Of a stretch of DNA of 11,869 bases, positions 7,691-11,869 are shown one piece after another. The notes under the pieces are model-generated. The model had not been told where the DNA came from and searched no databases. It was given only the letters and a program-made list of their open reading frames with translations. How positions within the stretch are numbered: position 1 is the stretch's first letter; every line of letters starts with the position of its first letter. The DNA lies in the NCBI GenBank assembly GCA_009703165.1, contig WLGP01000011.1:1-11869 (forward strand). Direction: 5' to 3'. This DNA comes from Actinomycetota bacterium. GTDB taxonomy: Bacteria > Actinomycetota > Actinomycetes > Nanopelagicales > Nanopelagicaceae. The translations under genes were made by a program, and so were the position numbers.

Positions 7691-7957
7691 GTGGTCTTGT
7701 TACGTGAAGCAGTCGGCAGCTCTCTTCGCGCTGCGCGCACCGAACAATCGCGCACACTTCGCGATGTTGCACGTGAAGCGCGAGTATCACTTGGCTATCT
7801 CTCTGAAGTCGAACGTGGACAGAAAGAGGCATCGTCTGAGCTTCTCAATGCAATCTGCGACGCCCTCGGCCTACAACTTTCTGCACTCATGAGTGATGTC
7901 ACTCTTCAGATCGCATCTGGCGAGATCGCGAAGCTCTCCGTTGTCGACGCAGCCTAA
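7691..7957 (+). CDS. clgR: ClgR-type XRE transcriptional regulator
   Basis: This 88-residue Cro/C1-type HTH protein is nearly identical in pattern to actinobacterial ClgR ([53 protein letters not shown]). ClgR activates clp protease and other proteostasis or stress genes. GTG 7691 is chosen over GTG 7685 because it gives the family's MVLLRE start and lies 5 nt after GGGGAG (7680-7685); the upstream GTG overlaps that ribosome binding site. The C-terminus ends in Ala-Ala (VVDAA). Streptomyces ClgR is reported to be a Clp substrate whose degradation depends on its C-terminal alanines, so a feedback degron is plausible here. It lies 12 bp downstream of cinA. Confidence 0.92.
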
Positions 7958-8468
7958 GTACGCCACGCAAGGCGCTTCACATCGCCGTACCGAAGAGGCG
8001 ATTCTCCAGGGAACAAAAGATCTGATTGCAATTCAAGGTCTTTCTAAAATTTCAATGATTGATATCTCAGCAACTTCTGAAGTTGCCCGCGCTACTTTAT
8101 ATAACCATTTTCGCGATAAGAGTTCAGTTGTTGAAGCACTCCTTTCCTCTGAGGTCTCTCGAGTTATAGAGCAGGCACAGTCAGCCGGAACTCCGGCTGA
8201 TGCCCTCGAATACCTCTCGATTGCCATCTCTTCAGATAGCGCTCTCGCCGGGTTGCGCCAGCACGATCCAGGGTTGATTGCGCAATTGTTGATTCATAGC
8301 GAACACCCTCTCTACCTTGATCTTGCACGTGCGATATTTGCACTGACGCAATCACAGAGCGCTACCGGCCTTGCCATGCGTTGGTTACTTGGTCAAGCAG
8401 TACAGCCACTTACTCCAGAGCAGTCGCGCGAACAGGCTGCGCTCCTTGTCGAGAACACTCTCTTCTAA
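7941..8468 (+). CDS. TetR-family transcriptional regulator
   Basis: This protein of about 175 residues has a TetR-type N-terminal DNA-binding domain: [20 protein letters not shown], then the [27 protein letters not shown] (about residues 37-60). A helical ligand-binding domain of low similarity follows. The start is uncertain. No ATG lies after the clgR stop; TTG 7941 gives a family-like N-terminus with a 17-bp overlap into clgR, while GTG 7893 or ATG 7896 would add an Arg/Ser-rich extension that reads clgR out of frame. The overlap implies coupled translation with clgR. Ligand and targets cannot be inferred. A TetR regulator between clgR and DUF3046 is not part of the usual actinobacterial order I know. 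Confidence 0.8.
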
Positions 8469-8497
8469 AAACTGTAGATGCAAATGGATTGCACCAG

Positions 8498-8698
8498 ATG
8501 AGGATCTCTGATCTACGTAATCGGATAGAACTCTCTTTCGGTAGCGATTGGGCCTCCTCTTTCTGCAAAGACATCGCACTTTCTGAGCTCGGGAGCAAGA
8601 CAGTTGATGAAGCGCTGGCTGCAGGACATGAAGCAGCAGATATCTGGCGAGCTGTCTGTGCTGCACACCCAGTAGAGACCCTTGCACACAAGTACTAA
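8498..8698 (+). CDS. DUF3046 family protein
   Basis: This 66-residue protein has the DUF3046 pattern MRISDLRNRIELSFG ... ALSELGSKTVDEALAAG ... DIWRAVCAAHPV and the family's usual length. Its function is unknown. It is an actinobacterial hallmark that commonly lies immediately upstream of recA. ATG 8498 is preferred to the upstream in-frame GTG because it gives exactly the family N-terminus. No clear ribosome binding site is visible, and the TetR stop is 29 bp upstream. Here recA does not follow. Confidence 0.88.
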   Translation: MRISDLRNRIELSFGSDWASSFCKDIALSELGSKTVDEALAAGHEAADIWRAVCAAHPVETLAHKY

Positions 8699-8721
8699 CT
8701 GCAAGTTATTTGCATAATTTC

Positions 8722-8740
8722 TTGAGGTAGATCACCTCAA
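8722..8740. promoter_or_regulatory. 19-bp palindrome TTGAGGTAGATCACCTCAA (operator candidate)
   Basis: Perfect 7-bp arms TTGAGGT/ACCTCAA flank a 5-bp centre AGATC. The site lies 24 bp after the DUF3046 stop and 16 bp upstream of the -35 box of the leader-peptide promoter, centred near -61 relative to the predicted transcription start. That position suits an activator site. It could instead be a weak terminator for the housekeeping operon, but no T-run follows and the stem has only 3 G-C pairs. Confidence 0.5.
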
Positions 8741-8756
8741 TTTAGTGGCACAGAAA

Positions 8757-8785
8757 TTGATTTGGTTGGTCTTTAAATCTAAAGT
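8757..8785 (+). promoter_or_regulatory. Promoter of the leader-peptide/rhodanese/permease operon
   Basis: TTGATT (8757-8762) and TAAAGT (8780-8785) are separated by exactly 17 bp. The -10 ends 6 nt before the leader ATG at 8792, so transcription would start at or next to that ATG and give a leaderless message. This is the best-formed promoter in the window. Confidence 0.65.
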
Positions 8786-8791
8786 ACAGCC

Positions 8792-8851
8792 ATGTTTACA
8801 AAACGACGCGCGATTGATTACTGCCGCGTTGCAACATCTATTTGTTGCTAA
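8792..8851 (+). CDS. Cysteine-type leader peptide (19 aa)
   Basis: The ORF encodes MFTKRRAIDYCRVATSICC with cysteines at 11, 18 and 19; the last two codons (TGT TGC) immediately precede TAA. It fits the actinobacterial leader-peptide pattern with R-R-x-x-D-x-x-R-V near the start and terminal cysteines, found upstream of sulfur-assimilation genes in mycobacteria and streptomycetes and shown in mycobacteria to act as a cysteine-responsive attenuator. It sits 78 nt upstream of a thiosulfate sulfurtransferase gene, directly after a good promoter and apparently without a 5' UTR. Family membership is recalled rather than searched, but motif, length and context agree. Confidence 0.75.
   Translation: MFTKRRAIDYCRVATSICC
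8831..8848 (+). promoter_or_regulatory. RNA hairpin over the leader peptide's Cys codons
   Basis: GCAACA (8831-8836) and TGTTGC (8843-8848) form a perfect 6-bp stem with loop TCTATT. The 3' arm is exactly the two terminal Cys codons. A ribosome stalled there would prevent the stem from forming. A pyrimidine-rich stretch follows (about 8855-8892); TTCTCT at 8884-8889 can pair with the rhodanese ribosome binding site AGAGGA at 8919-8924 (one G-U pair). Confidence 0.45.
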
Positions 8852-8918
8852 TTGACTTTTCGCACCCGCTTTTCTATTTGCTTTTCTCTTTAACTAAACC
8901 ACAACACACTACAAAAAT

Positions 8919-8924
8919 AGAGGA
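8919..8924 (+). promoter_or_regulatory. Ribosome binding site of the rhodanese gene
   Basis: AGAGGA lies 5 nt before ATG 8930. It may be sequestered by TTCTCT at 8884-8889, which would make it the target of leader-peptide control. Confidence 0.6.
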
Positions 8925-8929
8925 TTACT

Positions 8930-9886
8930 ATGTTTACACTCAATAAGAAGGTAATTGCAGCGGCATCATCGCTTGCAGTTTTAGCACTCACAGCAACATC
9001 ATTTACACCAGCACAGGCTGCTCCAAAGAATCAGGCACGCTCCGTCGTTTCAGCAGATTGGGTTGAGAAGAATCTCAACGATCCAAAGGTAGTTATCGTT
9101 GAGGTCAGCACAGAGCCTGGCATCTACGAGCGCGGCCACATTCAGAACGCTGTAAAAATCTCATGGCATACAGATCTCGTTGATACTGTAAATCGCGATG
9201 TTGTTTCAGCGGCAAAGTTCCAGAAGTTTGCACAGAACTCTGGAATTAGCGCCGATTCAACAATCGTTCTCTACGGAGATAAGAACAACTGGTTTGCAGC
9301 ATGGGGTGCGTGGATCTTTAACCTTTACGGCGCTAAGGATGTCCGCATCCTCGATGGTGGCCGCGTTAAGTGGGAGAAGGATGGTCGCGCCATGACAACT
9401 GCCGTCCCAACAAAGCCAAAGGGTAACTTCACAAGTACTCGTCTAGATAAGAGCCTTCGCGCAACGCTGCTACAGGATGTTATCCCAGTGGCAAAGAAGC
9501 GCGTCAAGGCTGATTTGATTGATATTCGTTCAGCAGATGAGTTCAGCGGCAAGATCTTTGCACCAGCTGGCTTCCAGGAGCTTGCAGTTCGCGCCGGACA
9601 CATCCCAGGTGCTATCAACGTCCCATGGGGTCTTAACGTCAACGCTGATGGAACCTTTAAGACAGTTGCTGAGTTGAAGAAGCTCTATGCCGATCGCGGA
9701 GTAGATGGCAAGCAGCCAATCATTACCTACTGCCGCATTGGTGAGCGCTCATCACTTACCTGGTTTGTATTGAGCGAAATCCTTGGCTATGACGTCAAGA
9801 ATTACGATGGCTCATGGACTGAATACGGAAACACTGTCGGTGTTCCAATTTCAAATCCTTCAGGAACTGTATGGGGAGCTAACTAA
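8930..9886 (+). CDS. Exported two-domain rhodanese (thiosulfate sulfurtransferase, CysA/SseA type)
   Basis: This 318-residue protein has a Sec signal peptide (basic NKK, hydrophobic core about 8-22, AQA before a likely cut after residue 30), so it should act outside the membrane. Two rhodanese domains follow (about 37-155 and 175-310). The first has YGDKNNWFAAWGAW with no cysteine, the usual inactive structural domain. The second carries the active loop C268-RIGERSS, followed by TWFVLSEILGY and VKNYDGSWTEYG. It closely resembles mycobacterial CysA-type thiosulfate sulfurtransferases, which to my knowledge lack such a signal peptide. It transfers sulfane sulfur from thiosulfate to an acceptor; the acceptor here is unknown. 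Its stop overlaps the permease's apparent ATT start. Confidence 0.92.
   Translation: MFTLNKKVIAAASSLAVLALTATSFTPAQAAPKNQARSVVSADWVEKNLNDPKVVIVEVSTEPGIYERGHIQNAVKISWHTDLVDTVNRDVVSAAKFQKFAQNSGISADSTIVLYGDKNNWFAAWGAWIFNLYGAKDVRILDGGRVKWEKDGRAMTTAVPTKPKGNFTSTRLDKSLRATLLQDVIPVAKKRVKADLIDIRSADEFSGKIFAPAGFQELAVRAGHIPGAINVPWGLNVNADGTFKTVAELKKLYADRGVDGKQPIITYCRIGERSSLTWFVLSEILGYDVKNYDGSWTEYGNTVGVPISNPSGTVWGAN
9873..9878 (+). promoter_or_regulatory. Ribosome binding site for the permease, deciding an ATT start
   Basis: GGGGAG lies inside the last rhodanese codons, 7 nt before ATT 9886. No conventional start codon in any frame sits at a suitable distance, so the site supports ATT 9886 as the true start. 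Confidence 0.6.
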
Positions 9887-11121
9887 TTACTACAGATACT
9901 AACTTTGATAGAGGTTCTGGATCTTCCGGAACCTCTATTGAGGCTTCTACCTGGAGTCGCGGTGATACCTATCGCACGATAGCCGCAGCCATTCTCGCGC
10001 TATCGCTACTGGCAGGAGCATATGTTCTCTCTGGAACAGAGGGAACTGGTGCACAAGCTTCTTTCTCACTTCTTATCGGTGCAGCGCTCGGCCTGATCTT
10101 CGAAAGAGCGCGCTTCTGTTTCTTCTGTATCTTCCGCGATGCAATCGAAGATAAGAACACAACGCCGCTCCTTTCAGTACTGACTGCCATCGCCGCCGGA
10201 AGTATTGGATATGCCATTCTCTTTGGCCAATTTCTTCCAGATACATCAACTGAATTCTTTCCACCCAATGCCCACATCGGTCCAGTCAGCTGGGTGCTGA
10301 TTCTGGCCGGCTTACTCTTTGGACTTGGAATGACGCTCTCTGGTGCATGCATCAGTGGTCATATCTATCGCATCGGCCAGGGATCTCTTCGCGCAATTCC
10401 TGCCCTTCTTGGCTCACTTATTGGTTTTGGTTTAGGTTTTGCATCGTGGAATAGCCTCTATCTTTCAGCGCTGAGCGAGGCACCAAAGACATGGCTTCCC
10501 CATACATTTGGATACGCTGGATCCCTTGTCATTACATTTGCGATCTTAGGTGCGATCTATCTCTTTGCTCGTAAGTGGGGAACTTCCTCTGAAAACATTT
10601 CAGCACCAGCGACAGGTTCGCTCTACACCAGATTGATCATTAATCGCTGGCCACCGCTTCTATCTGGCGCTCTCGTTGGAATCGTCGGAACAGTTGCCTA
10701 TCTTCGTATTGAGCCTCTTGGCGTTACAAGACAGCTCAGCACAACAGCACGCACACTTCTTTCAGATCGTGGTTATCTTCCTGAAACTCTCGAAGGTCTC
10801 GATGTGATGAAGGGATGCATCGCTGTCATCAGCTCAACCATTACAAATAATGGTTGGTTAATCATCGGCATCTTGGTCGCATCCCTTGCTGCAGCGCTGG
10901 CTGGAAATAGATTTAAACTTCAAGAGATCACTTTGCGCAATGGATTTACCGCCCTGCTTGGCGGAATTCTTCTTGGCTGGTCATCCATGATCGCACTTGG
11001 TTGCACAGTAGGTGTTCTTCTCTCAGGAACACAGGCCTTTGCACTCTCTGGCTGGGTCTTCTGTGCAACGGTCTTTATTGGAACAGTTCTTGGTGTGAAG
11101 TTAAAGCTTCATAAGCTTTAA
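9886..11121 (+). CDS. tsuA: YeeE/YedE-family thiosulfate permease (TsuA-like), apparent ATT start
   Basis: This integral membrane protein of about 411 residues would import thiosulfate (or another small sulfur compound). Two internally related halves carry family motifs: ERARFCFFCIFRD (C78, C81), GMTLSGACISGHIYRIGQG (C155), MKGCIAV (C311), and IALGCTVGVLLSG (C373); TsuA proteins pass thiosulfate along conserved cysteines. The reading frame is open from 9883, and homology to the first membrane helices (from about residue 29) requires a start before 9970. No ATG, GTG or TTG occurs in frame until GTG 10294, which would delete the first helices and the first cysteine motif. ATT 9886 overlaps the rhodanese stop (TAATT), sits 7 nt after GGGGAG, and yields a TTDTNFD N-terminus. 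The alternatives are a -1 frameshift fusion or a sequencing error of TAATG. Confidence 0.85.
   Translation: MTTDTNFDRGSGSSGTSIEASTWSRGDTYRTIAAAILALSLLAGAYVLSGTEGTGAQASFSLLIGAALGLIFERARFCFFCIFRDAIEDKNTTPLLSVLTAIAAGSIGYAILFGQFLPDTSTEFFPPNAHIGPVSWVLILAGLLFGLGMTLSGACISGHIYRIGQGSLRAIPALLGSLIGFGLGFASWNSLYLSALSEAPKTWLPHTFGYAGSLVITFAILGAIYLFARKWGTSSENISAPATGSLYTRLIINRWPPLLSGALVGIVGTVAYLRIEPLGVTRQLSTTARTLLSDRGYLPETLEGLDVMKGCIAVISSTITNNGWLIIGILVASLAAALAGNRFKLQEITLRNGFTALLGGILLGWSSMIALGCTVGVLLSGTQAFALSGWVFCATVFIGTVLGVKLKLHKL
9908..9938 (+). other. 13-bp RNA hairpin at the start of the permease gene
   Basis: ATAGAGGTTC (9908-9917) pairs perfectly with GAACCTCTAT (9929-9938), extended inward by TGG/CCG (one G-U pair) around the 5-nt loop ATCTT. 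The stem begins 22 nt downstream of the ATT start and encodes the Gly/Ser-rich residues DRGSGSSGTSI. No T-run follows, so it is not a canonical terminator. It may attenuate read-through, stabilise the rhodanese 3' end, or affect initiation at the weak start codon. Confidence 0.65.
11101..11121. terminator. Palindromic hairpin at the convergent permease/yaaA junction
   Basis: Perfect 9-bp arms TTAAAGCTT (11101-11109) and AAGCTTTAA (11113-11121) flank a 3-nt loop CAT. The right arm ends in the permease stop codon. It can form on transcripts from both sides, so a bidirectional terminator is the simplest reading. It has only 2 G-C pairs per arm and no T-run, so termination strength is doubtful. 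Confidence 0.4.
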
Positions 11122-11679
11122 TCACACTGCAATTACTTCCAACACCCACGGTTGATCACCTGTTGGCGGTGTCAGCGCACAGGGATATTTTTCAGAGACG
11201 ATAGCGTAGATATCTTCAGGAGTCTTTGTGATTGAGCGGCTAGTCAGAAGCGCCCTAGCTACCTCACCACGAGTCTTCTTTGACATGTGTGTAATGACTT
11301 TTCGCTCTCCATCAACCACTGTTGATGCACGAATTGCAACGGTGACATCACATGGAGCGCTCCATACCGCTTGATATGTAGATGAACGACAGTCGACAAT
11401 CAAATCTTTCTTGTATCCGGCTAACTTCTTTTCGACCACTGGGCGCATTACAACGTTATTGATCTTCTCTTTATAGAACTCGATGCGATCACTCGGAGCT
11501 AGCGCTCCATATTTTGCCGAGATGATGACAACTGATTTCTCACAACGCGCTTTGGCACTTGGTGAGAGCGTTGGGTAATCCAGTGCCTTGTAGAGAACTC
11601 CGCTATAGACAGCGATCGCAGGCTGGGCTCCGTTGGGGGTCGGGTTCTTGCCTTCAGATGGTGGCAAGAGGATCAACAT
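11122..11679 (-). CDS. yaaA: YaaA family protein (DUF328), compact form
   Basis: The protein is 185 residues, against about 240-260 for typical YaaA. The family N-terminus MLILLPPSEGK is intact and the later core is recognisable: AVYSGVLYKALDYPTLSP, IISAKYGALAPSDRIEFYKEKI, VDCRSSTYQAVW and ITHMSKKTRGEVARALL (matching the KKARG segment of E. coli YaaA). The helical region normally between PPSEGK and YSGVLY (some 50-60 residues) is missing. E. coli YaaA limits intracellular iron and oxidative DNA damage under peroxide stress and binds DNA. An upstream in-frame ATG at 11814 would add 45 residues but is rejected because MLILLPPSEGK is the normal start. Its stop codon is directly adjacent to the permease stop. 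Confidence 0.85.
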   Translation of the reverse strand: MLILLPPSEGKNPTPNGAQPAIAVYSGVLYKALDYPTLSPSAKARCEKSVVIISAKYGALAPSDRIEFYKEKINNVVMRPVVEKKLAGYKKDLIVDCRSSTYQAVWSAPCDVTVAIRASTVVDGERKVITHMSKKTRGEVARALLTSRSITKTPEDIYAIVSEKYPCALTPPTGDQPWVLEVIAV

Positions 11680-11741
11680 GGGGCCATTCTGGGGCGCGCA
11701 GAGGCTCTGGCAGGGGAGAAGGGGCGACACGCCGCCTGTGA

Positions 11742-11763
11742 TGTCAGTGGGCGGTGCTAGTTT
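11742..11763 (+). promoter_or_regulatory. RecA-NDp (PafBC-dependent) DNA-damage promoter
   Basis: TGTCAGTG (11742-11749), an 8-bp spacer and TAGTTT (11758-11763) match the mycobacterial RecA-NDp consensus tTGTCRGTg-N8-TAnnnT at every defined position except the weakly conserved first T. This promoter class is LexA-independent and is activated by PafBC after DNA damage. It points right, with transcription starting near 11770, so its gene lies at or beyond the window edge. Confidence 0.78.
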
Positions 11764-11764
11764 T

Positions 11765-11778
11765 CGAACAGGTGTTCG
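11765..11778. promoter_or_regulatory. LexA-binding SOS box
   Basis: CGAACAGGTGTTCG is a canonical actinobacterial SOS box (CGAAC-N4-GTTCG, perfect half-sites). It begins 1 bp after the -10 and covers the predicted transcription start, an ideal position for repression. Combined with the PafBC motif it makes a doubly controlled DNA-damage promoter. Confidence 0.88.
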
Positions 11779-11869
11779 GATACCCTTATACCTGTTCAAC
11801 CAGAGCGGTTCCATCTTCCGCCCACAGCTCTTCCCCAGATGCTGTGGTCCGTCGGTGGGTCTCCGTACC

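Follow-up and report, generated by a model that had tools for sequence, protein, structure and literature searches.

A likely cysteine leader peptide ahead of a rhodanese–permease operon in freshwater actinobacteria

Why should an operon for a rhodanese and a sulfur-compound permease be preceded by a minute reading frame that ends in two cysteine codons? The question is raised by a stretch of 11,869 nucleotides (here called the window) from contig WLGP01000011.1 of an Actinomycetota bacterium (assembly GCA_009703165.1), which we take to belong to the freshwater acI group (Nanopelagicales). To judge from sequence comparison, the frame at 8792–8851 probably encodes a leader peptide that is translated, acts in cis and belongs with the cysteine leaders of actinobacteria. 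It is an open reading frame that is conserved in frame, is selected as a peptide and keeps a constant place before the rhodanese–permease operon. A role as leader is likely, and a response to cysteine is probable.

The frame lies on the forward strand, from an ATG at 8792 to a TAA ending at 8851, and encodes the 19-residue peptide MFTKRRAIDYCRVATSICC with cysteines at codons 11, 18 and 19 (8822–8824, 8843–8845 and 8846–8848). It opens with atg ttt aca, continues with aaa cga cgc for Lys–Arg–Arg and gcg att gat tac up to the first cysteine, then tgc cgc gtt, followed by gca aca tct att, and closes with tgt tgc taa. The sequence agrees here with the initial annotation, which had described an ORF with three cysteines, two of them as the last codons, in front of a rhodanese and a permease gene. 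Among ORFs of up to 50 codons, the pattern RR..D..R.{3,9}C, searched as a regular expression, finds this frame and nothing else in the window; a search of both strands over 400 kb from two relatives brought up only the two orthologous leaders. The upstream neighbours on the same strand are genes for a DUF3046 protein, immediately before the leader (about 8498–8698), and a TetR-like protein (7893–8468).

Downstream, on the same strand, follows the rhodanese gene (8930–9886), with the Shine–Dalgarno sequence AGAGGA at 8919–8924. Its 318-residue product has two Rhodanese domains by Pfam (118.8 bits) and, by eye, an apparent signal peptide; its best solved chains, 3hwi and 3aax, are both named thiosulfate sulfurtransferases. 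The active-site loop, with Cys268, reads CRIGERS, a loop type of rhodaneses. The next frame (9886–11121, 410 residues) encodes a permease of the YeeE/YedE (Sulf_transp) family, with 181.7 bits against PF04143. Like the TsuA/YeeE thiosulfate transporters of S. thermophila (6leo) and E. coli, it combines membership of this family with three transport cysteines: Cys77, Cys154 and Cys372 align with those of S. thermophila TsuA, whose roles are given in a published account (PMC11582611). Unlike them, it falls far below the cut-offs of the two TsuA NCBIfam models (75 bits against 400 and 68 against 645), and its partner gene encodes a secreted-looking rhodanese.

The permease gene probably begins with an unusual codon, an ATT at 9886–9888 whose first base is also the last of the rhodanese stop codon (TAATT). 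Further upstream in its frame, an ATG (9871–9873) meets a TAA after two codons, and the first in-frame ATG, GTG or TTG in this genome is a GTG at 10294. ATT or ATC stands at the rhodanese–permease overlap in 19 of 19 leader-bearing loci; five codons upstream of the overlap there is a TTG in 11 of them and a CTG in seven. Because only the present locus and L070 have an intervening stop, only these two are pushed towards the ATT start. An assembly error at this point of the genome may also be involved. Among operon copies outside the leader-bearing clade – 73 of the best 80 of 574 rhodanese stretches from a named genome collection – 71 have an ATG, GTG or TTG in open frame near the start of the permease match.

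Two curated models bear on the leader peptide itself. Against NF042934 (putative leader peptide, cis_reg_atten), it scores 31.7 bits in a full-length match, above the cut-off of 27 (28.9 in a six-frame search); against NF042933, the Ms5788A family Cys-rich leader peptide, it reaches 38.4 bits (E 7e-10; 36.3 in a six-frame search), below the cut-off of 45. Since it passes the former and resembles Ms5788A at a score under the equivalog cut-off, we file it with the actinobacterial cysteine-leader kind; the likeness of its RR-x-x-D-x-x-R pattern to actinobacterial leader peptides, asserted at first sight of the sequence, has held up against both models and against the class-wide leader set described below. 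Its own assembly, which is 65% complete and comprises 968 kb in 153 contigs, contains no other match to NF042934 at E ≤ 10; of 14 control genomes, 10 gave weak matches and none a match over the cut-off. A six-frame search of 151 genomes of the host family, its own included, brought only two past the cut-off, namely its own and G094, whose passing leader precedes a different gene; most orthologues of the leader therefore fail it.

Leaders of this kind have a precedent in mycobacteria. According to Shell et al. 2015 (PMC4633059), a Cys-rich leaderless small ORF with ribosome occupancy lies upstream of mycobacterial cysA2, and stalling in the Cys tract was suggested speculatively for mycobacterial leaders; two other articles name six Cys-rich M. 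tuberculosis ORFs as likely regulators (PMC9094748) and mention translation attenuation in M. smegmatis (PMC13236596). Because a Cys-rich leader before a sulfurtransferase gene, that of mycobacterial cysA2, already appears in PMC4633059, the novelty here would lie in the rhodanese–permease operon: among the titles and abstract openings listed by literature searches that took leader peptides and YeeE/TsuA separately, there is no report of such a leader on a rhodanese–permease import operon or in the host family.

The present leader resembles that of Ms5788A (NF042933, mycobacterial cysA2) in its KRRA(I/V)D-x-CRV core, in its terminal Cys and in being the first ORF ahead of an operon for a rhodanese of the thiosulfate-sulfurtransferase type. 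It differs from it in scoring below the curated cut-off, in having one or two terminal Cys across loci, in the Shine–Dalgarno match that precedes the leader in 9 of 19 loci, and in its operon, which joins a secreted-looking rhodanese to a permease instead of encoding a CysA2-type rhodanese (with or without DUF4395). With the mycobacterial polycysteine leaderless attenuators it shares a position as a short ORF that opens a sulfur operon and closes with Cys codons and, in the genome at hand, a start that looks leaderless. Unlike these, it has mixed start types across loci and a G-poor spacer, and conserved masking of the ribosome site downstream was not found; a long Cys tract is absent, with two terminal Cys in this leader and one or two in its orthologues.

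How far, then, does the leader follow the operon? Within the 151 family genomes, the permease query matched in 15 and the rhodanese query in 41, and all 15 permease-bearing genomes have the leader. Thirty family rhodanese loci were examined; of 18 further matches, mostly weaker or second copies, only that of G100 was used. The present locus and 13 others, at about 70% rhodanese identity or more, all carry the leader, its ATG 122–155 nt upstream of the approximate rhodanese start (the spacer is 78 nt in the genome at hand). The other 16, at 46–52% identity, are a CysA2-type paralogue and have no leader directly upstream, a loose filter yielding unrelated short ORFs in four. G100, the fifteenth permease genome, has a rhodanese only 40% identical, yet bears a leader, ...EFTKRRTVDYCRIMTTSCNG, with a GTG start and a TAGTTT at −12 (start choice and spacing by eye).

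A profile search of the named genome collection extends this picture within the best 80 of 574 confirmed rhodanese stretches. The leader is present in all seven loci at 71% identity or more and, in a motif search up to about 500 nt upstream (less at contig ends), in none of the 73 outside the clade; the permease is present in the locus in 79 of the 80, the stretch of L070 ending too early. The short ORFs that precede the four other actinobacterial copies of the operon are without the leader motif. Of 72,556 plasmid records searched with the rhodanese, 279 match, 278 of them at less than 60% identity. Public records titled Bifidobacterium breve (L072, L073 and L076) carry the operon, under titles that look mislabelled. 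As L075 and L076 repeat G009 and G050, the distinct leader loci number 19, or 20 with G100. The initial annotation had staked its reading on the ORF frame and Cys codons recurring in related genomes; the frame, Cys11 and a terminal Cys are indeed conserved, in 15 of 15 permease-bearing genomes and at 20 distinct loci. The terminal pair fares less well: a Cys at the terminus is conserved, but it is doubled in only 6 of 19 loci, the remaining 13 having one Cys at or near the end.

Related leaders are widespread in the class, where NF042933 matches 154 of 197 genomes at E 0.01 or better, 28 of them over the cut-off. In all 30 best-scoring class-wide loci a CysA2-type rhodanese follows the leader, whose typical core is LTKRRAVDLCRVA, and in 18 of these 30 a DUF4395-like protein is encoded in between (Pfam confirmed DUF4395 for two proteins, one of them from the 30 loci). 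A rhodanese tree of 78 rows – all 19 leader-bearing loci, 29 of 73 other permease-linked and 30 of 42 CysA2-type ones, with G100 left out – separates the CysA2 type (100/100) and gathers every locus that bears the leader into a single clade (100/98). Its nearest branches, weakly supported (83/87 and 87/90), are the Actinomycetota loci L077, L083 and L109, which have the operon and no leader, followed by a mostly Chloroflexota set and then by Pseudomonadota and others. The simplest story is that an operon with an ancestry of its own acquired a Cys leader once; the leader may instead have been lost in sister lineages, or captured a second time in G100.

The family holds other leaders as well. 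A related peptide (e.g. LTKRRHIDFGRLVGSLCRM) occurs in L034, L035, L037, L039–L041 and L043–L047, around positions 1345–1560, in front of a DUF4395 protein (by Pfam for L034, by eye for the others); after it come a CysA2-type rhodanese or, by eye, proteins resembling a Fur regulator and a GcvT-like protein, so that cysteine control may be common to several operons. The leaders of L032 and L033, TRRHIDLKRTSSAICC and TRRHIDFMRTASALC (about 1486), stand before, or two genes before, what looks by eye like the binding protein of a peptide transporter; that of L032 passes NF042934 and matches NF042936 (Ms4527A) below the cut-off.

The way in which translation of the leader begins seems to differ between loci. 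In the genome at hand, a TAAAGT occupies −12 to −7 of the leader ATG, a position that would suit a leaderless start, with the RNA 5′ end at or next to the ATG, and no Shine–Dalgarno match precedes this codon. Together with a −35-like TTGATT at 8757–8762 and a 17-nt spacer, the −10-like TAAAGT (8780–8785) makes up a putative promoter at 8757–8785, recognised by eye; the 'good promoter' at first noted here proved too generous a description, as a strict sigma-70 consensus scan of 8650–8980 found none. A TANNNT lies exactly at −12 in 6 of the 14 family loci (the present one, L001, and L004, L005, L009, L013 and L015); in L074 it stands at −13. All seven are without a Shine–Dalgarno match. Such a match is found in the other eight family loci (L003, L006, L007, L008, L010, L011, L012 and L014) and in L070, and a purine-rich stretch is seen by eye ahead of the leader in L071, L072 and L073. 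Seven of 19 loci thus look leaderless and nine look Shine–Dalgarno-led, the leaderless-looking ones falling on three separate branches of the rhodanese tree.

What might such a leader do? A ribosome would start on it at or near the RNA 5′ end and, when Cys-tRNA is scarce, would stall at the Cys codons, perhaps aided by the conserved KRRxIDxCR nascent chain. Stalling could then raise rhodanese expression, and that of the permease with it because translation of the two overlaps, either by freeing the rhodanese ribosome site or by preventing premature termination in the open spacer; the outcome would be the import of reduced sulfur when cysteine runs out. The accounts that compete with or refine this scheme differ in what they ask of the peptide, the spacer and the RNA structure.

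Selection bears on the peptide first. The 14 family loci give 12 distinct core rows, among which all 16 core codons vary in the third position, seven in the first and six in the second; nonsynonymous differences make up 0.41 in pairwise comparison, where 0.74 would be expected in the absence of selection. When changes are counted by parsimony on the 19-locus rhodanese tree, the whole core shows 63 synonymous and 30 nonsynonymous changes. The 19 loci agree throughout in eight of the residues (K, R, R, I, D, C, R and C), whose codons change only synonymously – 20 against 0 for the six non-Cys codons, 4 against 0 for Cys11 and the conserved terminal Cys – so that the peptide is under selection. 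We also considered a conserved hairpin over the terminal Cys codons and rejected it: present in the genome at hand (8831–8836 with 8843–8848), it is in general no stronger than in synonymous reshuffles (mean z −0.5 over 19 loci, range −3.47 to 1.12), the few exceptions being L071, L072 and L073.

The six invariant non-Cys residues, which attenuation by codon starvation alone does not need, suggest that the nascent chain could itself be a sensor, an arrest peptide for cysteine or a sulfur metabolite in which the Cys codons belong to the arrest motif and are not just a meter of tRNA charging. The recurrence of the KRR..D.CR core throughout the class argues in the same direction, as does the invariance of Cys11, far from the end of the peptide. 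Against this, about 20 residues is short for arrest in the ribosomal tunnel, the charged residues could instead be conserved for a part in initiation or in the release of the peptide, and the core Cys is missing in some other family leaders (e.g. KRRHIDFGRL). We regard a sensor of this sort as a serious possibility, though on balance we lean against it.

The spacer suggests another account. From the leader to the rhodanese ribosome site (8852–8911), it is G-poor and pyrimidine-rich, with 7% G, 30% C and 40% T. Without its last 18 nt, the spacer has 1–9% G in all 14 family loci and 3–7% in five further distinct loci, and only 1 of 61 control upstream regions from two relatives is as low (≤9%), although this control set is rough and some of it may be coding. 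Such a G-poor, C-containing spacer might be a Rho-loading site, with the position of the ribosome deciding whether RNA polymerase reads through into the rhodanese gene. C also exceeds G in the spacers of the class-wide leaders (means 0.42 and 0.27; 27 of 30 loci parsed), which speaks for transcription attenuation of this type. Yet the commonest spacer base is mostly T rather than C, the spacers behind the family's other leaders contain 5–18% G (12 of 16 loci parsed), and a ribosome on the last Cys would cover, by the footprint assumed in our modelling, only 3–9 nt past the stop, which makes shielding hard to explain. No intrinsic terminator was found in 8650–8980 and no known RNA family (Rfam) in 8400–11869. 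With so little G the spacer RNA stays open, which could serve Rho, re-initiation or mere avoidance of structure; control through Rho thus appears possible, if rather doubtful.

Third, the ribosome site of the rhodanese gene may be hidden in an RNA structure that stalling opens. This is the published model for the mycobacterial leader family, and Canestrari et al. (2020) reportedly tested the stalling idea for the polycysteine leaderless attenuators. In the genome at hand, a 10-bp hairpin (8870–8879 with 8915–8924; forward strand) does cover the AGAGGA, and when a ribosome parked on the last Cys is modelled, the energy needed to open the ribosome site falls by 1.3 to 3.1 kcal/mol in 5 of 14 loci (L005, L006, L007, L009 and L012). 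However, a ribosome stalled in the leader would, with the footprint we assumed, end short of the hairpin, which lies further downstream; the other 13 family loci show no such structure in common; and in the remaining nine loci stalling alters the opening energy by at most 0.4 kcal/mol (from 4.6 to 4.3 in the genome at hand). As a common mechanism, masking thus finds no support in 9 of 14 loci and some effect in 5, and we think it rather unlikely that unmasking is how this leader acts.

Two further explanations set regulation in cis aside altogether. A stand-alone small protein acting in trans, for instance by binding sulfur or a metal, would account for selection on the peptide; it is very improbable in view of a frame that always lies directly upstream of the rhodanese–permease pair in 20 loci, of its variable tails and of similar leaders before other genes. 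That the ORF arose by chance, as short ORFs commonly do, is contradicted by profile match, conservation, codon pattern and rarity of the motif, and can be neglected for practical purposes.

What the operon would bring into the cell is a related question. Sulfite reductase (PF01077) was found in only 3 of the 151 genomes of the family, and the 15 permease carriers are not among them; cysteine would therefore have to come from reduced sulfur or from uptake. The genome at hand has a single PAPS_reduct match in a frame of CysD size, a length that leads us to read it as CysD. In the family, PAPS_reduct is found in 52 genomes, mostly once and in a reading frame some 300 codons long, again of CysD size; adjacent second copies, maybe CysH, occur in G077 and in G094, both of which have sulfite reductase. 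G094, one of the three family genomes with this enzyme, is also the genome of the L032 leader.

The substrate of the permease may be thiosulfate. YeeE-mediated uptake needs the TusA-family partner YeeD (PMC11073785); a TusA-like protein (PF01206) was found neither in the genome at hand (65% complete) nor in the seven permease carriers of the same genus (99–100% complete), whereas the other 7 of the 15 carriers, which belong to different genera, have one. Perhaps the secreted rhodanese takes the place of the TusA-like partner; alternatively, the permease may import a different sulfane-sulfur compound, as reported for the related YedE1E2 (PMC10812762).

Taken together, these observations allow a joint reading, which we put forward tentatively and which, with all its parts, is somewhat unlikely to be right as it stands. 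A leader of the CysA2 kind would have been captured by a secreted-rhodanese–permease operon of separate ancestry in a forebear of freshwater actinobacteria that lack sulfite reductase, placing sulfur import under cysteine control; the leader would act as a cysteine-sensing nascent peptide (KRRxIDxCR...C), with switching between leaderless and Shine–Dalgarno starts and without the masking structure of the mycobacterial leaders.

The finding should be of practical help to annotation, given a leader so short and a permease frame with no usual codon near its start in this genome. The 20 loci, with two apparent start types and one or two terminal Cys, form a natural comparison set for the invariant non-Cys residues. 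For the biology of these organisms, it would extend the cysteine-leader family to small-genome actinobacteria that are nearly without sulfite reductase, and would place it there on an importer operon.
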